Of a DNA stretch of 37,789 nt, positions 2,266 to 26,472 are shown one piece after another (position 1 is the first letter of the stretch; the number at the start of each line of letters is the position of its first letter). This DNA is from Bacteroidales bacterium (GTDB taxonomy: Bacteria > Bacteroidota > Bacteroidia > Bacteroidales > UBA932). The stretch is taken from contig JAFTYS010000081.1 in assembly GCA_017461285.1 (NCBI GenBank), positions 1 to 37,789 of the forward strand, written 5' to 3'. The notes below the pieces were generated by a model. The model searched no databases and was not told the origin of the DNA. It saw only the letters and a program-made list of their open reading frames with translations. The position numbers and the translations under genes are program-made.

Positions 2266-3228
2266 TTATTCGTAGTCCGTAAGCTTGAGGCGGTATTTAT
2301 TGCTTCCGAAATTTCGAAAGTACAGATTGCCGGTCGAGCCGGCAATGACGGTCGGGACGGGAATGACGGGGTCATCGGCAATGACGGGGTCGGCCTGACC
2401 GGCAATGACGGGGTCGGCTGGGCCGACGGACTGGGCTGCCGCCCCGGGTCTGACCGGGGACCTTTTCCATGTCCCCGGGTCCACAGAGAACAGCACAGGC
2501 TTCTTCTGTCCTTCCAGAACAAACCCGAGCTGGCGGTAGACATCCCCACGGGACCATTCCAGGTCCGCATAGCTCATCACGTCGTCCGGACGGACATCTT
2601 CAATGAATGTCTTCAGCATCTTTCCCATGCCTCCATTGACCCTGACACCAGGAAGGGAAGCATATCTGGTCCACTCATATGACCTTATCTCCCTGTCCCC
2701 CTTGACCCACTTGCGGGCATTGGAAAACGTCGCGACAGCGAGCAATGTGCCCGGAACAAGCACGGCATCAGCCGCCAGATGGCCGGTCTGCCTTTTAAGG
2801 AAAAGGCCATACCGGTACCGGCACGCCGCGTCCCCATAAGAATGATTGCTCATGAGAAAATCATGAGCTTCGGGTTTTTCTATCCTCCTGACCTCACAGT
2901 TACGGGCAAAGGCCTGGCCGAACACCTCCAGGTGGGCAAGAAGACGCTCCTGCATCATATCCTTCTGCAGACGCCACCGGTCTTCAGTGACAATCAGCGG
3001 TGTTTCAGCAATTACCCGCATGAATTCGAGACAGTCGAGCGCACGGTCGCTGGCCTCAACGGCTTCTTCGGGCGTCAGGGATGAAACTTCCAAGGGCAGA
3101 ATTACTTTCGAAACCCGCCCGTCTGCAGTACCTGCACATATGATATCGAACCCGTCACGCATCTGACGGGAACATTTGAATCCTTTACCTTCCAGGAAAA
3201 CGGCTATTTCTTCAAGCAGTCCGGTCAT
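2266..3228 (-). CDS. GNAT/Mom-like protein of unknown function with repeat-derived insert
   Basis: This 320-residue protein has no confident name. Residues 150-240 show a GNAT-like run: 'LLAVATFSNAR', 'SYEWTRYASLPG', then VNGGMGKMLK where an acyl-CoA loop would be, and a final 'YRQLGF' typical of the last strand and helix of GNAT-fold proteins. Phage Mom-type DNA-modifying proteins have a comparable layout, but this is inference. The N-terminal 110 residues are a separate, unassigned domain. Residues ~257-301 are low complexity ('DPVIAG', 'DPVIAD') and are encoded by the REP-like hairpin repeats at 2326-2459. The family-like terminus 'YFRNFGSNKYRLKL' resumes after them, so the insert is in frame. 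The ATG overlaps the stop of the GDPD gene (ATGA at 3225-3228), indicating translational coupling. Confidence 0.8.
   Translation of the reverse strand: MTGLLEEIAVFLEGKGFKCSRQMRDGFDIICAGTADGRVSKVILPLEVSSLTPEEAVEASDRALDCLEFMRVIAETPLIVTEDRWRLQKDMMQERLLAHLEVFGQAFARNCEVRRIEKPEAHDFLMSNHSYGDAACRYRYGLFLKRQTGHLAADAVLVPGTLLAVATFSNARKWVKGDREIRSYEWTRYASLPGVRVNGGMGKMLKTFIEDVRPDDVMSYADLEWSRGDVYRQLGFVLEGQKKPVLFSVDPGTWKRSPVRPGAAAQSVGPADPVIAGQADPVIADDPVIPVPTVIAGSTGNLYFRNFGSNKYRLKLTDYE
2326..2459. repeat. REP-like hairpin repeats inside a coding region
   Basis: A hairpin ATTGCCGG-tcgag-CCGGCAAT (2326-2346) is followed by three further copies of the AATGACGG motif at 18, 18 and 24 base spacing, and hairpins GTCGGC-tgg-GCCGAC (2413-2427) and CCCCGG-gtctga-CCGGGG (2442-2459). 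Spacings are multiples of three, so the minus-strand gene stays in frame. Confidence 0.8.
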
Positions 3229-19754: not shown

Positions 19755-20948
19755 ATGAACAACAAGGTTGTACTCGCCTTCAGCGGCGGACTGGACACAT
19801 CATTCTGTGTCCCTTATCTCAAGGAAAAAGGTTATGAGGTCCATACGGTCATGGTCAATACCGGAGGATTCTCAGCAGAAGAAGAAAAGGCCATCGAGGA
19901 GCGCGCCCTGACTCTTGGCGCGGCATCCCATACCAACGTGAATGCGGTAGACACATATTATGAAAAAGGTATCAGATATCTTATCTACGGAAACATCCTC
20001 AAGAACGCCACCTATCCCCTTTCGGTAAGTTCGGAAAGAGTGTTCCAGGCGCTGGAAGTGCTCAAACATGTGCAGAAGATCGGAGCAGGCGCTGTAGCGC
20101 ACGGCAGCACAGGAGCCGGAAACGACCAGGTGCGTTTCGACATCGTGTTCGAGATTCTCGCACCGGAAGTGGAGATAATCGCTCCCGTGCGTGACGAGGG
20201 ATTCACCCGCCAGTTTGAGATCGATTTCCTTCAGAAGCATGGTTTCGATTTCACATGGGAGAAGGCGAAGTATTCGATCAACCAGGGCCTTTGGGGCACA
20301 AGCATCGGAGGTGTCGAGACACTTTCTTCTGACGGATATCTTCCTGAAGAGGCATATCCGACCAAGGTGACCAAGACTGAGCCTGAGCATATAAAGATCG
20401 GATTCCGCAAGGGCGAGCCCGTATCATTCAACGGGGTTGAGATGAGCCCGGTAGAAGTCATCAAGGCTGTACGCGATGCGGCCGGTCCGTTCGGAATCGG
20501 AAGAGACATCCACATCGGCGACACTATCATCGGCATCAAGGGTCGCGTAGGTTTTGAGGCTGCAGCTCCTCTGATCATCGTGAAGGCGCATCACCTTCTC
20601 GAGAAGCATACCCTCACAAAGGGTCAGCTCTACTGGAAGGAGCAGATTGCAGGCTGGTACGGACAGCAGATGCATGAGGCCATGTATCTGGATCCTGTCT
20701 GCAGGGACATGGAGGCGATGATGGACAGTATCGAGAAGAATGTAACCGGAGAGGTTGAGGTTGCGCTCATGCCATACCATTTCTCTGTTCTGGGATGTAC
20801 GAGCGGCCACGATCTCATGAGTTCGAAGTTCGGAGCGTATGGCGAGGTCAACAAGTCGTACACCGGACGCGATGTGGTGGGATTCACCAAGGTCATTGCC
20901 AATCCATTGAAGATTTATTATTCTGTAAACGGAATGGATGAAGAATAA
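19755..20948 (+). CDS. argG: Argininosuccinate synthase
   Basis: ArgG joins citrulline and aspartate with ATP to argininosuccinate. The 397-residue protein starts with the ATP-binding LAFSGGLDTSFCVPYL (PP-loop), followed by 'GAGAVAHGSTGAGNDQVRFD' (citrulline/aspartate site), and ends 'FGAYGEVNKSYTGRDVVGFTKVIANPLKIYYSVNG'. Length is as expected. Its stop codon lies within the left arm of the palindromic element at 20945-21050. Confidence 0.97.
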   Translation: MNNKVVLAFSGGLDTSFCVPYLKEKGYEVHTVMVNTGGFSAEEEKAIEERALTLGAASHTNVNAVDTYYEKGIRYLIYGNILKNATYPLSVSSERVFQALEVLKHVQKIGAGAVAHGSTGAGNDQVRFDIVFEILAPEVEIIAPVRDEGFTRQFEIDFLQKHGFDFTWEKAKYSINQGLWGTSIGGVETLSSDGYLPEEAYPTKVTKTEPEHIKIGFRKGEPVSFNGVEMSPVEVIKAVRDAAGPFGIGRDIHIGDTIIGIKGRVGFEAAAPLIIVKAHHLLEKHTLTKGQLYWKEQIAGWYGQQMHEAMYLDPVCRDMEAMMDSIEKNVTGEVEVALMPYHFSVLGCTSGHDLMSSKFGAYGEVNKSYTGRDVVGFTKVIANPLKIYYSVNGMDEE

Positions 20949-21050
20949 ACGGTTGGCTTTATGCTCCATTGGCCCCCTCCCACTTTGTGGGCCCCTCCCC
21001 CTACGCGGGGGTGCGAAAATGCCAATTCCGCATTAAAGCCAACCGTTTAT
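20945..21050 (+). repeat. Palindromic element A (argG-argC gap)
   Basis: Imperfect inverted-repeat arms 20945-20972 and 21022-21050 (starting ATAAACGGTTGGCTTTA) enclose a core with two hairpins: CCCAC-TTT-GTGGG (20979-20991) and CCCCC-tacgc-GGGGG (20997-21011). The left arm begins within the argG stop codon. It fills nearly all of the 124-base argG-argC gap. The core is about 90% identical to that of element B. Confidence 0.9.
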
Positions 21051-21072
21051 CATAGTCACAGCATTATACATT

Positions 21073-22164
21073 ATGAGTGAATTTAAGAAAATACGTGTAG
21101 CGATTGCGGGGGGTACGGGATATACCGGCGGCGAGCTGTTCAGGATATTGATGAACCATCCGTATGTGGAGGTTGTGGCGGCGACCACGACTTCTTCCGA
21201 AGGCACGCCTGTAGCGTCGGTCCACCGCGACCTTATCGGCGAAACAGACCTTTGCTTCGGAAAGGAGCTGAATGATCCTGATGTGATATTCCTCTGCCTC
21301 GGGCACGGTATTTCGCGTCAGTTCGTCGATTCGCATGACATCAAGCCGGAATGCCGCATAATTGACCTGGGAAATGATTTCAGGCTTGACGGGGATTATG
21401 CCGGCCGTCATTTCGTATATGGTCTGTGCGAGAGCGCACGTGAAGAGATACGCAAGGCACATGATGTCGCAAACCCGGGCTGTTTCGCGACTGCCATCCA
21501 GCTGGCGACGTTGCCGCTGGCGGCTGCAGGGCTTATCAACGATGAGATACATGTGACGGCGATCACGGGATCGACCGGAGCGGGAAAGAAGCCGGGAGAG
21601 ACGACTCACTTCAGTTATCGAAGCGACAACATATCGATATACAAGCTCTTCACGCATCAGCATCTGGCGGAGATCAGACAGAATCTCACTAAGGTGATGG
21701 GACAGGCTGTTGACTCCGCAGGCCCCCTCCCACTTCGTGGGCCCCTCCCCCTAGCCGGGGGTGGCCATGCCAGTTCCATCAATCAGGCGACCGAATCTTT
21801 CAATGAGGAGACTCTGAAAGTGAATTTTGTGCCGCTTAGGGGGGATTTTGCGAGGGGAATATTTGCGAGTGTCTATACCAGGGCTGCGGAAGGAATGACG
21901 CTGGAGGATTACAGGAAGGTATTTGAGGATTATTACGCCGAGTCTCCTTTTGTGTTCCATAGCAATGAGGGCATTTCGATGAAGGAGGTCGTGAATACGA
22001 ACAAGGGTCTGGTGCATGTGGAGCTGCACGACGGTTATGTGCATATAGCTTCTTGCATTGACAATCTTGTGAAGGGAGCGGCGGGACAGGCTGTGCAGAA
22101 CATGAATCTGATGTTCGGGCTGCCGGAAGACACGGGTCTTCGTCTGAAGCCTTCCGCTTTTTAG
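21073..22164 (+). CDS. argC: N-acyl-gamma-glutamyl-phosphate reductase with palindromic insert
   Basis: ArgC reduces N-acylglutamyl phosphate to the semialdehyde with NADPH. The 363-residue protein has the NADP loop 'AIAGGTGYTGGELFRIL' (about 10-26), catalytic Cys137 in 'NPGCFAT', and the C-terminal 'NFVPLRGDFARGIFASVYT'. Residues ~212-240 (about 28 codons, 21705-21788) are encoded by palindromic element B and are rich in Gly, Pro and Leu ('AGPLPLRGPLPLAGGG'). They fall in a loop between 'NLTKVMGQ' and 'SFNEETLKVNFVP' where normal ArgC has no such segment, so the enzyme probably remains active. The frame is intact. Confidence 0.95.
   Translation: MSEFKKIRVAIAGGTGYTGGELFRILMNHPYVEVVAATTTSSEGTPVASVHRDLIGETDLCFGKELNDPDVIFLCLGHGISRQFVDSHDIKPECRIIDLGNDFRLDGDYAGRHFVYGLCESAREEIRKAHDVANPGCFATAIQLATLPLAAAGLINDEIHVTAITGSTGAGKKPGETTHFSYRSDNISIYKLFTHQHLAEIRQNLTKVMGQAVDSAGPLPLRGPLPLAGGGHASSINQATESFNEETLKVNFVPLRGDFARGIFASVYTRAAEGMTLEDYRKVFEDYYAESPFVFHSNEGISMKEVVNTNKGLVHVELHDGYVHIASCIDNLVKGAAGQAVQNMNLMFGLPEDTGLRLKPSAF
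21705..21788 (+). repeat. Palindromic element B, in-frame inside argC
   Basis: The core has the same two hairpins as A: CCCAC-TTC-GTGGG (21729-21741) and CCCCC-tagcc-GGGGG (21747-21761). The flanking arms are short and imperfect here (GGCTG-TTGA at 21705-21713 and its near complement at 21779-21788). The 84-base span is 28 codons, so the reading frame is preserved. Confidence 0.85.
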
Positions 22165-22182
22165 AGAAAGAGAGTGATTATT

Positions 22183-23307
22183 ATGAATTTATTTGAGGTT
22201 TATAAGCTTTGGGATATCGAGCCGGTCAGGGGACTGGACACGACCCTTTGGGATAAGGACGGGGAGGTGTATACCGACCTTTACGGCGGCCATGCCGTGA
22301 TTTCTGTCGGACATTGCCATCCTCATTATGTCAAGATGCTTCAGGAGCAGCTAGGAAAGCTGGGATTCTATTCGAATGCAGTACAGAATTCGCTGCAGAG
22401 GGATCTTGCTTCGCGTCTCGGAAAGGTCTGCGGATATGATGACTATGCACTTTTCCTTTGCAACAGCGGTGCTGAAGCGAATGAGAACGCGTTGAAGGTG
22501 GCATCTTTCCATACAGGTAAGGCAAAGGTCCTGGCATTCAGGAAGGCGTTCCACGGCAGGACTTCGGGAGCTGTAGCAGCTACTGACAATCCGAAGATCC
22601 AGGCTCCGTTCAATTCTACTGAGAATATCGTCTTCGCTCCTCTGAATGATCTTGCTGCTGTAGAAGCGCAGTTGTCAAAGGGAGATTTTGCTGCTGTAAT
22701 CATCGAAGGAATCCAGGGAGTGGCTGGAATATATGAGCCTTCGGACGAATTCCTCCACGGCCTGCGCGCCCTCTGCAACAGGTATGGATGCGTCCTGATC
22801 CTGGACGAGATCCAGTCCGGATACGGCCGTACAGGAAAGTTCTTCGCCCACCAGCACAGCGGGGTCCGCGCGGACATCATAACTACAGCCAAGGGAATGG
22901 GTAACGGTTTCCCTATCGGAGGCGTGCTGATCAGTCCTTCCATAAAGGCATCATACGGAATGCTCGGCACGACTTTCGGAGGCAATCATCTTGCATGCAC
23001 GGCAGCCCTTGCCGTCCTGGACATCATTGAGAATGAGCATCTTGTAGAGAACGCCGCTAAGATCGGAGAGTATTTCCGCGCTGCATTCGCACAGGACAAG
23101 GCACTGAAGGAGTACCGCGGAAAGGGTCTCATGATCGGAATGGAGCTGAAGGATGAGTATGTCGGACTTCGCGACAGGCTTCTCTTTGAAAGACATTTCT
23201 TCACAGGAGCCGCAGGAGCGCAGGTAATCCGTCTGCTTCCTTCGCTCACAGTCTCACAGGGGACCGCAGAATCATTCGTTAACGCTTGGAGAGAACTGAC
23301 ATTATGA
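22183..23307 (+). CDS. argD: Acylornithine aminotransferase
   Basis: A PLP-dependent class III aminotransferase, 374 residues, converting N-acylglutamate semialdehyde to N-acylornithine. Visible are 'FLCNSGAEANENALKVA' (phosphate-binding), 'KAFHGRTSGAVAATDN', 'LILDEIQSGYGRTGKFFAHQ' and the PLP lysine in 'TTAKGMGNGFPIGG'. I chose ATG at 22183 (MNLFEVYKLW) over a GTG at 22174. Its stop overlaps the argF' start (ATGA at 23304-23307). Confidence 0.95.
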   Translation: MNLFEVYKLWDIEPVRGLDTTLWDKDGEVYTDLYGGHAVISVGHCHPHYVKMLQEQLGKLGFYSNAVQNSLQRDLASRLGKVCGYDDYALFLCNSGAEANENALKVASFHTGKAKVLAFRKAFHGRTSGAVAATDNPKIQAPFNSTENIVFAPLNDLAAVEAQLSKGDFAAVIIEGIQGVAGIYEPSDEFLHGLRALCNRYGCVLILDEIQSGYGRTGKFFAHQHSGVRADIITTAKGMGNGFPIGGVLISPSIKASYGMLGTTFGGNHLACTAALAVLDIIENEHLVENAAKIGEYFRAAFAQDKALKEYRGKGLMIGMELKDEYVGLRDRLLFERHFFTGAAGAQVIRLLPSLTVSQGTAESFVNAWRELTL

Positions 23308-24257
23308 GACATTTCACATCTATAACCCAGCTCGGTGACCTTAAGAATGCTCTTGAGGCAGCCAGATACGTAAAGGAAAATCCTTTTGCCGACCAGGCTC
23401 TCGGAAGAAACAAGACCCTGCTGATGATATTCTTCAACTCCAGCCTGAGGACCAGGCTCAGCACGCAGAAGGCGGCGATGAACCTAGGGATGAACGTCAT
23501 CGTGCTGGATGTGAATCAGGGAGCATGGAAACTGGAGACTGAGCGCGGAGTCATCATGGACAGCGACAAGCCAGAGCATCTTCTGGAGGCAATCCCTGTG
23601 ATGGGCTCGTATTGCGACGTCATAGGAGTAAGGGCATTTGCAAAGTTCGAAAGCAAGGAAGACGATTACAATGAAGTGATAGTCAACCAGTTCATCAGAT
23701 ATTCAGGCAAGCCGGTGTTCAGTATGGAGGCAGCGACAAGGCATCCGCTTCAGACATTCGCTGACCTGATCACCATCGAAGAATACAAGAAGGTCGAGAA
23801 GCCGAAGATAGTGATGACATGGGCTCCGCATCCGAAAGCCCTGCCGCAGGCTGTTCCGAATTCATTCGCTGAGGGCATCAACATGACCGATTATGAATTC
23901 GTGATCACCCATCCGCACGGATATGAGCTCGATCCGGCATTCACCGGACGTGCGCGAATCGAATATGACCAGAGGAAGGCCTTCGAAGGCGCGGATTTCA
24001 TATATGCGAAGAACTGGTCAGCCTACAGCGGCGACAACTACGGAAAGGTACTCTGCACCGACAGGGACTGGACTGTGGATTCGGAGAAGATGGCACTGAC
24101 CAACAACGCATACTTCATGCATTGCCTTCCTGTGCGCAGGAACATGATCGTGACCGACGATGTCATCGAAAGTCCGCAGTCGATCGTGATTCCGGAGGCA
24201 GCAAACCGCGTCGTATCGGCCCAGACCATACTGAAAGAGATTCTGAAGAGCCTATGA
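23304..24257 (+). CDS. argF': N-succinyl/acetylornithine transcarbamylase
   Basis: This 317-residue transcarbamylase transfers carbamoyl phosphate to an N-acylated ornithine. It belongs to the SOTCase/AOTCase branch rather than ordinary OTCase: 'FFNSSLRTRLSTQKAAMNLG' (44-62) replaces the usual STRTR pocket, and 'FMHCLPVRRNMIVTDDVIESPQS' is the family C-terminal block. Residue 90 is Pro ('MDSDKPEH'). In the characterised Bacteroides fragilis enzyme a proline at position 90 marks succinylornithine specificity, while the acetylornithine enzyme has Glu at the equivalent place, so succinyl specificity is predicted. ATG at 23304 overlaps the argD stop; a TTG at 23286 is in frame but unlikely. argB overlaps its stop by 4 bases. 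Confidence 0.94.
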   Translation: MRHFTSITQLGDLKNALEAARYVKENPFADQALGRNKTLLMIFFNSSLRTRLSTQKAAMNLGMNVIVLDVNQGAWKLETERGVIMDSDKPEHLLEAIPVMGSYCDVIGVRAFAKFESKEDDYNEVIVNQFIRYSGKPVFSMEAATRHPLQTFADLITIEEYKKVEKPKIVMTWAPHPKALPQAVPNSFAEGINMTDYEFVITHPHGYELDPAFTGRARIEYDQRKAFEGADFIYAKNWSAYSGDNYGKVLCTDRDWTVDSEKMALTNNAYFMHCLPVRRNMIVTDDVIESPQSIVIPEAANRVVSAQTILKEILKSL

Positions 24258-25117
24258 TAAAGGTAGTAAAGATAGGAGGAAACGTCGTCGACAATCCGTC
24301 GCTTCTGCGGGAGTTCGTCAGGGATTTCGCGGCCATGCCGGGCATGAAGGTGCTCGTCCATGGAGGCGGGGTCATGGCTAGCCAGATGCAGAAGGAGATG
24401 GGCATGGTGCCGAAGATGGTGGAAGGCCGCAGGGTCACGGACGAGGAGACGCTGAAGGTCGTGACCATGGTATATGCAGGCTGGTGCAACAAGAACATCG
24501 TAGCCCTGCTGCAGGCCGAAGGATGCAATGCCATCGGGCTCACAGGAGCAGATGGCAATGCCATAAAGGCCAGCAGGAGACCGCCGGTCCATGTCGAGAG
24601 CCTCGGAGAAGATGTGGACTACGGTTATGTCGGAGATGTGAATGCAGAAAGTGTGAATGCAGGGTTCATATATTCTCTTCTTGAGAAAGGAATCGTACCG
24701 GTATTCAACGCGATAAATCATGACGGAAATGGCAACCTGCTGAACACTAATGCAGACACCATCGCTTCGTCTGTGGCAATCGCCATGGCGAACTACAGAT
24801 ACAGAACACCTCGCGAGGTATGCAGCAGGTGTGAGGAATGTACATTCTGCAGCGACGACGGCCGTCTGACACATGTAACCGATCTGGTCTACTGCTTCGA
24901 AAAGGATGGCGTTCTGTACGACAAGGACGACGATTCGAGCGTGATACCGGAGATCGACAGGGAGAAGTTCGCGCAGCTGAAGGCGGAAGGCAGGGTCGCA
25001 GACGGAATGATTCCGAAACTTACGAATTCATTCAAGGCCATCGACAGCGGAGTGGCGAGGGTGATCATCAAGCACGCACGCAACCTGCTCGGCACGACAG
25101 GAACAACATTGATATAA
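24254..25117 (+). CDS. argB: N-acylglutamate kinase with Cys4 insert
   Basis: ArgB phosphorylates N-acetyl- or N-succinylglutamate. The 287-residue protein has the amino-acid-kinase motifs: 'VVKIGGNVVDN' (4-14), 'VLVHGGG' (33-39), 'GLTGADGNAIK' (95-105), 'NADTIASSVA' (166-175) and 'GMIPKLTNSFKAI' near the end. An extra segment of about 25 residues (roughly 180-205) separates 'AIAMAN' from 'LVYCFEKDGVL', where relatives have only a few residues. It contains four evenly spaced Cys, CxxCxxCxxC (190, 193, 196, 199). The frame begins at 24254 with ATGA overlapping argF'; a much longer upstream frame was rejected. Confidence 0.94.
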   Translation: MIKVVKIGGNVVDNPSLLREFVRDFAAMPGMKVLVHGGGVMASQMQKEMGMVPKMVEGRRVTDEETLKVVTMVYAGWCNKNIVALLQAEGCNAIGLTGADGNAIKASRRPPVHVESLGEDVDYGYVGDVNAESVNAGFIYSLLEKGIVPVFNAINHDGNGNLLNTNADTIASSVAIAMANYRYRTPREVCSRCEECTFCSDDGRLTHVTDLVYCFEKDGVLYDKDDDSSVIPEIDREKFAQLKAEGRVADGMIPKLTNSFKAIDSGVARVIIKHARNLLGTTGTTLI

Positions 25118-26376
25118 TGGACAGAAACGAGTACATACGGACACTGGTATCTGAAGCGGCGGAGCTGCTGAAGGAGATGGTTCGGATTCCTTCGCCTTCA
25201 TTCAGCGAGACGGCCGTATGCGACCGTGTCAGCGGATGGATGAAGGAAAGGGGCATCGAGCACGAGCGCATCGGCAACAACATCGTAGCCGAGCACATCG
25301 CCGACCCGTCGAAGCCTGTGCTGATGCTTTGCGCCCATATGGACACTGTAAGTCCGTGCGAGGGATACGGGTTCGATCCATATTCTCCGGACTATGAAAC
25401 GGCCGCTGAGGTCATCGGCCGCATATCAGGTCAGAAGATCAGACCTGAGGACATAGTGGCCGGCCTTGGCAGCAATGATGACGGCGCATCTGTCGTCGCC
25501 ATGCTTGCCGTATATCGTTATTTCAACGATACATGCTGCTGTGGCAGCGGTTCCCAAAACCGTGCTACCCCCCTGGCCGCAGGGGGAGGGACCCGCTCCG
25601 AAGGAGTGGGAGGGGTTGTTTTGGGAACCGCTGCCACAGCAGACGTACCTGCAGGGACCAACCTGATACTGGTACTGACATGCGAGGAGGAAAGGTCGGG
25701 AAAGAACGGAATGACAGGATTGTGGGGGACGAGGGTCTGCAGTAGAGAGGAAAGGAAAGCCGGATGCACTGCGATCGACTTTGCGGTCATAGGGGAACCG
25801 ACCGGAATGAAGGCTGCGACTGCAGAAAGAGGTCTGCTTGTAATTGACGCAACCGCCTATGGAGTAAGCGGACATGCCGCACGCAATGAAGGTGAAAACG
25901 CTCTGTACATAGCTCTGGAAGACATTTCCCGCATAAGGGCGCATGAATTCGGAAAGATATCCCCAAGGATGGGAAAGGTCAATCTGAACGTCACCCAGAT
26001 CAATGCCGGCACGGCACATAATGTCATTCCTGACAGATGCGATTTCGTGATAGACATACGTCCTACCGAACAGTATTCGAACGAAGATATCCTGATGGAA
26101 CTTCAGGATATATGCCGCAGCGAACTCAAGCCGAGGAACCTGGCGAACAGGTCCAGCGCTACATTCGAGGACTCCCCTCTCCAGAAAGCGGCTGATGCCC
26201 TCGGAATAGAGACGTTCTCTTCGCCTACGACCTCGGACTGGATGCGCATCGGATGCGACGCGATAAAGATGGGGCCGGGAGAGTCGGCCAGATCCCACAG
26301 AAAGAACGAATTCGTGCTGGTCAGTGAGATACACAATGCAATTGAAACATACATTAATTTAATCCACCGGATGTAG
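25117..26376 (+). CDS. argE: N-acylornithine deacylase (ArgE/DapE family) with palindromic insert
   Basis: A 419-residue zinc peptidase of the M20 family, which would release ornithine (or citrulline) from its acyl group. Metal ligands are visible: His74 and Asp76 in 'CAHMDTVSP', Asp121/122 in 'GLGSNDDGASV', Glu190-191 in 'CEEERSG', Glu227 in 'VIGEPTG', and a late His in 'RSHRKNEF'. Residues ~141-175 (35 codons) are encoded by palindromic element C and read as Gly/Ala/Ser-rich. They interrupt the chain between the helix 'VYRYFNDT' and the strand 'NLILVLTCEEE', a loop in normal family members. The ATG at 25117 overlaps the argB stop by one base (TAATG). The stop lies in the left arm of element D. 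Confidence 0.92.
   Translation: MDRNEYIRTLVSEAAELLKEMVRIPSPSFSETAVCDRVSGWMKERGIEHERIGNNIVAEHIADPSKPVLMLCAHMDTVSPCEGYGFDPYSPDYETAAEVIGRISGQKIRPEDIVAGLGSNDDGASVVAMLAVYRYFNDTCCCGSGSQNRATPLAAGGGTRSEGVGGVVLGTAATADVPAGTNLILVLTCEEERSGKNGMTGLWGTRVCSREERKAGCTAIDFAVIGEPTGMKAATAERGLLVIDATAYGVSGHAARNEGENALYIALEDISRIRAHEFGKISPRMGKVNLNVTQINAGTAHNVIPDRCDFVIDIRPTEQYSNEDILMELQDICRSELKPRNLANRSSATFEDSPLQKAADALGIETFSSPTTSDWMRIGCDAIKMGPGESARSHRKNEFVLVSEIHNAIETYINLIHRM
25537..25641 (-). repeat. Palindromic element C, in-frame inside argE
   Basis: Perfect 24-bp inverted repeats, 25537-25560 and 25618-25641 (beginning TGCTGTGGCAGCGG), flank a 57-base core. Read on the minus strand, the core has hairpins CCCACTCC-TTC-GGAGCGGG and CCCCCTGC..CAGGGGG, matching the order in A, B and D, so this copy is inverted. 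The 105-base span is 35 codons. Confidence 0.92.
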
Positions 26377-26472
26377 GTCACTATGATACTACGTGACCCC
26401 CTGTCCTCTTCGAGGACGTCCCCCTAACCGGGGGTGGCATGTCACTTCCGTATCATAGTGCCCTGCATCCGG
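26367..26472 (+). repeat. Palindromic element D (argE-argH gap)
   Basis: Imperfect arms 26367-26397 and 26441-26472 (sharing CACTATGATAC) enclose hairpins GTCCTC-TTC-GAGGAC (26403-26417) and CCCCC-taacc-GGGGG (26420-26434). The left arm contains the last codons and stop of argE. Hairpin 1 has a different stem from A and B but still pairs perfectly. Confidence 0.9.

Follow-up and report, generated by a model that had tools for sequence, protein, structure and literature searches.

Palindromic elements with a two-hairpin core and locus-specific arms in the arginine operon and other housekeeping genes of Bacteroidales

The DNA analysed here, called the window throughout, is a stretch of 37,789 nucleotides (contig JAFTYS010000081.1 of assembly GCA_017461285.1) from a Bacteroidales bacterium, and it carries an arginine operon with the genes argG, argC, argD, argF, argB, argE and argH. 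Gene names follow Pfam families and gene order; argF was judged by its place to encode an acyl-ornithine carbamoyltransferase. The nearest genomes (first 17) are gut metagenome assemblies, two of the 17 being Candidatus Cryptobacteroides, and their ArgF proteins are 86–95% identical to that of the window. Four palindromic elements, A to D, lie in the operon at the positions that a reading of the sequence alone (the sequence-only reading) had given them. Each unit consists of an arm, a core of two hairpins and the inverted arm. The elements belong to a dispersed family in open reading frames, whose arms pair at the level of DNA, whose core occurs in both orientations and whose units are present or absent in near-identical genes. 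The features in the window are listed here, with type I and type II denoting kinds of core described below.

20945..21050, plus strand: element A, type I, in the spacer between argG and argC, with a left arm that extends into the argG stop codon
20979..20991, plus strand: hairpin 1 of A, CCCACTTTGTGGG
20997..21011, plus strand: hairpin 2 of A, CCCCCTACGCGGGGG
21073..22164, plus strand: argC, with element B in frame within it
21705..21788, plus strand: element B, type I, in frame in argC, with weak arms
21729..21741, plus strand: hairpin 1 of B
21747..21761, plus strand: hairpin 2 of B
25117..26376, plus strand: argE, with element C in frame within it
25536..25560, minus strand: gene-left arm of C, 25 bp, a perfect inverted repeat of 25618-25642
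25561..25617, minus strand: type II core of C, 57 nt, in the minus-strand reading, with hairpin 1 at 25592-25610 and hairpin 2 at 25569-25586
25618..25642, minus strand: gene-right arm of C
26367..26472, plus strand: element D, a divergent type I, between argE and argH; the argE stop codon is inside its left arm
26403..26417, plus strand: hairpin 1 of D, GTCCTCTTCGAGGAC
26420..26434, plus strand: hairpin 2 of D

The sequence-only reading had assigned one common core to all four elements. This holds for A, B and D, which share the type I core with a hairpin 2 of CCCCC, five nucleotides and GGGGG, but not for C, which has a related but different core (type II) with CCCCCTG-CGGC-CAGGGGG as hairpin 2. 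Hairpin 1 varies between the elements as described, but its version in C holds an A-C mispair, and the TTC or TTT loop said to be always present is not general in relatives. Overlooked, together with the second core type of C, had been that B is translated as part of ArgC and C as part of ArgE. In A and D, the outer arm runs into the last codons of argG and argE, respectively. Folded as single-stranded DNA, A, C and D are better than 200 of 200 shuffled sequences (z = −6.55, −9.21 and −6.70), and B folds no better than its shuffles, 55 of 200 of which fold equally well (z = −0.45), because its arms are weak. The arms are complementary over 25 bp (100%) in C and over 23 bp (91%) in D. With its 57-nt core and two 25-bp arms, the whole unit C measures 107 bp, which is within the range of about 105–146 bp of the Rickettsia palindromic element (RPE) type. 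In the predicted structure of ArgE (mean predicted local distance difference test score 83.7), the insert at residues 142–178 is the sole segment below 50. Models of both core types run over the window placed A–D alone clearly above background and gave no clear fifth copy, in agreement with the earlier reading. Weaker type I matches were seen at gene boundaries of the same operon in relatives (L005, 12973-13080; L006, 8568-8678; L012, 8752-8870), that of L005 at the place of element D.

Types I and II, together with a type IV found in relatives, have the left half of the core in common and differ in the right half. Type I is composed of an arm, TCC, a short stem (AYTGGC/GCCART), CCCCTCCC, hairpin 1, GGGCCCC, hairpin 2, TGGCAAAATGCC, TCC and an arm; by eye, an asymmetric bulge in the arms tends to sit 3–4 pairs outside the TCC/TCC loop. 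In type II, an arm ending in AC or AG is followed by AACCCCTCCC, hairpin 1, GGGYCCCTCCCCCTGCGGCCAGGGGGGTAGCACG and the inverse arm, and in type IV the order is arm, TAAATCCCTCCC, hairpin 1, GGGCCCCTCCCGTTCACRAGGCCACGGGCGGCCAYG and inverse arm. The type IV copies that were read look intergenic, the open frame not having been checked copy by copy. Type II cores are 57 (24 copies), 54 (6), 51 (4) or 60 nt long (1), all 35 lengths being multiples of three, and five of the six frames of the type II consensus are free of stop codons. A type III element with TCCCCCTRAYAGGGGGTGCAGGGGGTT occurs at L090-L094, L105, L107 and L126-L143 (genomes G010, G013, G014, G015 and G017); at L105 and L107 the upstream flank is repeated downstream, followed by an inverted copy of it. 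Neither the window with 11 loci (above the gathering threshold) nor the type III copies tried gave a match in Rfam, save for a tRNA near L107.

What had been proposed from the four copies, a dispersed family in which the two-hairpin core is conserved and the arms are specific to the locus, is borne out by many more copies in Cryptobacteroides-like relatives. A loose hairpin 2 pattern gave 67 matches, type III among them, in 15 of the 17 nearest genomes, against two for the reversed pattern. Of 400 genomes sampled from the genus, 39 contained the type I pattern (reversed control, 4 of 400). Among 393 genomes sampled from the order, two had the type II tail with at most one mismatch; these, G001 (the centre) and G316, also belong to the genus sample. 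A model, R1, had matches at E 0.001 in 127 of 200 genus genomes; these are not counted as copies, the 43 listed matches of at least 78 bits falling in 16 genomes. Twenty weaker R1 matches were read, 17 of them as type IV and three as type II with a long hairpin 1. Complete pattern matches collected from the DNA of relatives amount to 99 of type I and 36 of type II, leaving out five copies cut by contig ends (three of type I, two of type II); the type I lists were compiled by regular expression, and L185 at least may be a chance match.

Of these 36 type II copies, 35 lie in frame, in one loop per gene, in seven housekeeping genes: argE (7), truB (7), aroE (6), hutI (5), lpxB (5), miaA (4) and tilS (1). 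Host genes were named via Pfam, with hutI as amidohydrolase, miaA as IPP transferase and tilS as PP-loop, and the type II match L160 was assigned to no gene. The type II inserts are read open through in their host genes, and the core points one way in 17 and the other way in 18 of the 35. Type I occurs both within genes (argC, shikimate kinase, murB, methionine-synthase-like, radical-SAM, apbE and others) and between genes. A single truB gene (L224, genome G244) contains both a type I and a type II element. Type I copies also form close pairs, 332 bp (G345:C28, 150737/151069), 336 bp (G336:C64, 24792/25128) and 456 bp apart (G244:C4, 69717/70173). Carriage by viruses or plasmids was considered and set aside, as the patterns searched gave no match, neither three exact core patterns in viral contigs nor a 67-base type II core in phage and plasmid collections.

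The arms are mostly inverted repeats of 21–31 bp that differ from locus to locus. Across the 36 type II copies, complementarity is full at the three core-proximal positions, 0.86 at 20 bp, 0.72 at 25 bp and 0.33 at 30 bp, and near chance beyond that; 17 type IV copies behave alike. Among 16 aligned type II copies, both sides have changed in 25 of 27 arm pairs. Covariation between the type II arms is clear, with a score of 0.519 against 0.141 for shuffled arms (standard deviation 0.015; none of 500 reaches it) and at most 0.101 when the arms were slid. Read in the mRNA sense, 748 arm pairs (34 copies with 22 inner pairs each, the tilS copy being omitted here and from the same-locus arm counts) comprise 675 Watson-Crick, 14 G-U, 19 A-C and 40 other pairs. 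As G-U is about as frequent as A-C and the core stands in both orientations, a pairing process at the DNA level is indicated, with no sign of selection for RNA pairing.

Comparison of the same locus between species was carried out over 26 inner arm positions, and only pairs with at most 14 differences per arm were listed. The argE loci L006 and L007 have homologous arms with six paired and no single differences, and their cores are inverted relative to each other. In aroE, L120 and L125 differ by four paired and one single change, again with an inverted core, and L125 and L214 by five paired and no single changes. For truB, 30 genomes were searched and 29 loci read, 21 of them readable at the loop; eight have an intact core and about nine further ones show remnants, as judged by eye. 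The truB genes of G148 and G048, 92% identical over 2,010 bp, contain a full element and a core-less palindrome, respectively; both arms are kept despite the loss of the core, with one paired change. The truB loci L306 and L307 (G042 and G012) are identical over the entire element and about 150 bp although the region as a whole is only 93% identical, which suggests recent recombination between species that also moves alleles.

The P-numbered proteins were compared at the protein level, with the best 120 matches listed per search, which favours insert-bearing proteins. Both core orientations occur at the same locus in close relatives for AroE and ArgE. Among the best 120 of 1691 AroE matches, 66 have one orientation, 33 the other, and 21 neither or an altered one; 25 opposite-orientation pairs are at least 98% identical outside the loop and three at least 99%. 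The closest of these, P0148 and P0200, agree in 234 of 235 residues outside the loop and have an inverted core between arm peptides that are equal save for one residue. For ArgE (best 120 of 3049) the corresponding numbers are 23, 89 and 8, with no opposite pair at 98%. The ArgE of the window agrees with P0001 at 352/364, the core being inverted and one arm change mirrored on the opposite arm, and with P0002 at 358/364, P0002 being without the core and left with the arm peptides. Whole units are also present or absent: the ArgC proteins P0256 and P0351 (best 120 of 3093) are identical outside the loop (311/311) and 30 residues (90 bases) apart in length, and the AroE proteins P0122 and P0151 (233/235) differ by 33 residues (99 bases), both units being slightly shorter than the RPE-type range given above. 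In P0005, P0039 and ArgE proteins resembling them, the left and right arm peptides seem to belong to separate allele groups, as though unlike arms had been joined by recombination inside the core; this could also be due to assembly.

We think it probable, with considerable room for doubt, that these are selfish, presumably non-autonomous palindromic elements of about 90–115 bp, which spread in one Bacteroidales genus and are tolerated in frame in loops of housekeeping enzymes, with template switching during replication keeping the arms symmetrical and inverting the core. The arms would arrive with the element and then drift, and a change on one arm would tend to be copied onto the other when DNA polymerase switches template at the palindrome. 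The core may be inverted by the same switching, and the two hairpins may fold it into a compact cap that brings the arms together. The weakest step is the making of new copies, which would occur in trans by an enzyme that requires the near-invariant hairpin 2 and tail. Template switching is described as homogenising the arms of inverted repeats and inverting spacers in yeast genes (PMC8604942), and, in rRNA genes including bacterial ones, as changing bases in pairs, extending stems and inverting loops (PMC8794818).

Several observations weigh against this interpretation. Neither transposition nor a dedicated enzyme was seen, and no target duplication either, the close present/absent pairs having been compared as proteins; the inversions in the P-numbered AroE and ArgE proteins were likewise read at the protein level. 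In some same-locus pairs the change is mostly one-sided, with no paired and six single differences between L158 and L211 (truB) and one paired and 12 single differences between L100 and L219 (miaA). Furthermore, the aroE of G008, which is without the unit, keeps a stretch in which 23 of 26 bases (own count) are those of the left arm of G242's decayed copy; the arm there may be host sequence, or G008 may be a deletion product. Finally, drift and template switching do not explain the near-invariance of the last 27 bases of the type II core. On average per gene, 25.7–27.0 of these 27 bases agree between species, whereas at third codon positions the host genes of the same species show an agreement of only 0.51–0.58. 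The copies compared were chosen by a pattern allowing one mismatch, but the difficulty persists even given this choice, as neutral DNA of such age should seldom pass the pattern.

As hairpin 1 varies among type II copies while hairpin 2 and the tail are near-invariant, a protein that reads hairpin 2 is suggested. It is conceivable, although we hold it to be unlikely, that hairpin 2 and the tail are the recognition site of a dedicated enzyme, either a site-specific invertase or an HUH/Y1 transposase, which would turn the core around or insert it anew. The loop would then be phase-variable, an intragenic inverton whose core is constant and whose arms vary. The frequent occurrence of both orientations in AroE would fit such an enzyme, as would the distribution of Y1_Tnp matches, which were found in 14 of 14 element-rich genomes (G178 below the Pfam cut-off) and in five of 14 element-poor ones (about 3e-4, one-sided, by hand calculation), a comparison that does not control for kinship. 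However, at the 30 Y1 loci that were read, out of 52 listed matches, no core of a searched type lies within about 1.5 kb. Template switching, moreover, is reported to invert spacers without an enzyme (PMC8604942). Reverse transcriptase was rejected as mobiliser, since RVT_1 is not associated with the elements (three of 14 rich, four of 14 poor genomes). A GTAG or CGTC tag is absent from the foot of hairpin 2 in types I and IV, and type II has GTAG on the 3' side of hairpin 2. At L391, two copies of CCCCACATAGCGGGGG (822-837 and 3125-3140) flank a Y1 transposase-like gene. In its boldest form, to which we give an equally modest chance, an enzyme, with a Y1 transposase paralogue as candidate, would read the near-invariant hairpin 2 of each core subtype and invert the core or home it into palindromic sites; loops of housekeeping proteins would switch between two peptides in living populations, and the arms would be disposable and rebuilt by template switching. 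The mobile unit would then be recognised by its centre and not by its ends.

Homogenisation of type II cores within a genome was also considered, and is not clear. Mean core identity is 0.872 for copies at the same locus (83 pairs), 0.850 within the same genome (25) and 0.864 for neither (487); 1779 of 2000 permutations reach the same-genome value, and the same-locus effect is not clear either (169 of 2000).

Somewhat more doubtful than a dedicated enzyme is recurrent independent insertion at the same few sites in each species, with arms copied from the target and the two orientations resulting from separate events. It would account for a constant core between differing arms at one site and for near-identical proteins that differ in having the unit or not. 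Copying of the arms from host sequence upon insertion was in fact our initial idea, and the aroE genes of G008 and G242, where the left arm resembles the sequence of the shorter gene, still fit it. It was demoted, though not refuted, by a consensus of the arms across loci and by the 33-residue difference between P0122 and P0151, which corresponds to a core of 57 bases plus two arms of 21 bases each and speaks against target-copied arms. Compared with a consensus built by leaving out their own locus (20 outer positions), type II arms match at 0.523, against 0.360 for shuffled arms (none of 500 reaches it); a shift of register by one codon lowers the match from 0.547 to 0.41, so that codon make-up accounts for part of the resemblance. 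The type IV copies L291 and L292, which lie in one genome between unlike flanks, have arms that agree at 16 of 20 positions. Judging from both the consensus and this likeness, the arms probably came with the element and later drifted in pairs. Neither the fixed terminal inverted repeats of miniature inverted-repeat transposable elements nor terminal repeats common to all copies, as in RPE families, were found, only the weak arm consensus. In addition, insertion events confined to the seven loops that hold 35 of 36 type II copies would need an extreme choice of site, and truB, with eight of 21 loci intact and about nine remnants, looks inherited.

The sequence-only reading had taken paired changes as an argument that the structure itself is kept. 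A functional RNA structure in the transcript, serving attenuation, translational bypass or splicing and with its arms preserved because RNA pairing is selected, would agree with the strong paired change and the strong predicted folding. Nevertheless, we consider it very improbable, since G-U pairs are not in excess over A-C pairs, both orientations occur in genes, the type II host genes are read open through the insert, and Rfam gave no match. Paired changes alone are therefore no proof of RNA structure, given that 25 of 27 arm pairs covary here without an excess of G-U.

Assembly artefacts at palindromes can hardly be the source of the inversions and core-less forms: some contigs do stop at elements (for example G003:C47, G003:C13 and G015:C22), the relatives are nearly all metagenome assemblies, and the contigs that encode P0002 and P0003 are 2,016 and 1,672 bases long, but both orientations recur across many clusters, and paired substitutions are not expected from an artefact. 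Final assembly steps usually use k-mers longer than such arms.

The window also holds imperfect 24-nt direct repeats at 2349-2414.

With a centre that inverts and arms that change together, the elements look like a visible record of DNA copying errors within working proteins. Their constant centre and disposable arms are the reverse of an ordinary mobile element, which calls for the enzyme behind it to be found. Since the same loci can be compared among many species, with copies in either orientation and at several degrees of decay, it becomes possible to test how a palindrome of drifting sequence remains perfect and by what means selfish DNA persists within housekeeping genes.

Several known systems share part of these properties. 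Repetitive extragenic palindromic sequences (REPs) are described as having GTAG or CGTC at one end and as often lying near genes for REP-associated tyrosine transposases (RAYT) (PMC3733652). GTAG REPs are likewise short hairpin repeats, some of them within genes, and Y1-family genes exist in the genomes studied here; however, GTAG is absent from the hairpin foot in types I and IV and lies on the 3' side in type II, and no Y1 gene read adjoins a core. Invertons of gut bacteria, as described, also have inverted repeats around a segment found in both orientations, whereas here the repeats vary, the segment is constant and the loci are housekeeping genes. Mitochondrial double-hairpin elements resemble ours in being short and mobile with two adjacent hairpins, but are described from organelle genomes. 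We know of no long locus-specific outer arms in them.

Our literature search found no paper on such palindromic elements in Bacteroidales. The repeats shaped by template switching in yeast and rRNA genes show the same arm homogenisation, paired changes and inversion of spacer or loop, but in those reports they are short chance repeats with spacers of a few bases, in contrast to a dispersed family with a core of 51–60 nt (PMC8604942, PMC8794818). In nematomorph mitochondria, perfect inverted repeats in coding genes have arms that change together, for which template switching was suggested (PMC6649704). Their arms behave as those described here, but they belong to animal mitochondria, and the part of that report available to us describes no common core or dispersed family. 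RPEs, of about 100–150 bp with a long stem-loop and 12-bp terminal inverted repeats, occur between genes and in frame in conserved protein genes (PMC2229807). The likeness in layout noted by the sequence-only reading stands, as RPEs and Wolbachia palindromic elements resemble the present family in size, in the long stem-loop and in being both in frame in conserved genes and intergenic, a trait also found here. The present arms, in contrast, are mostly 21–31 bp and different at every locus, and the core is constant and inverting; the family is set apart from RPEs by this description rather than by sequence (PMC2229807). Protein-coding palindromes are best known from Rickettsia and Wolbachia, and the elements described here would add a further family from gut Bacteroidales. 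Their closest known counterparts are the RPEs in layout and lifestyle and the coding palindromes of nematomorphs in the behaviour of the arms.

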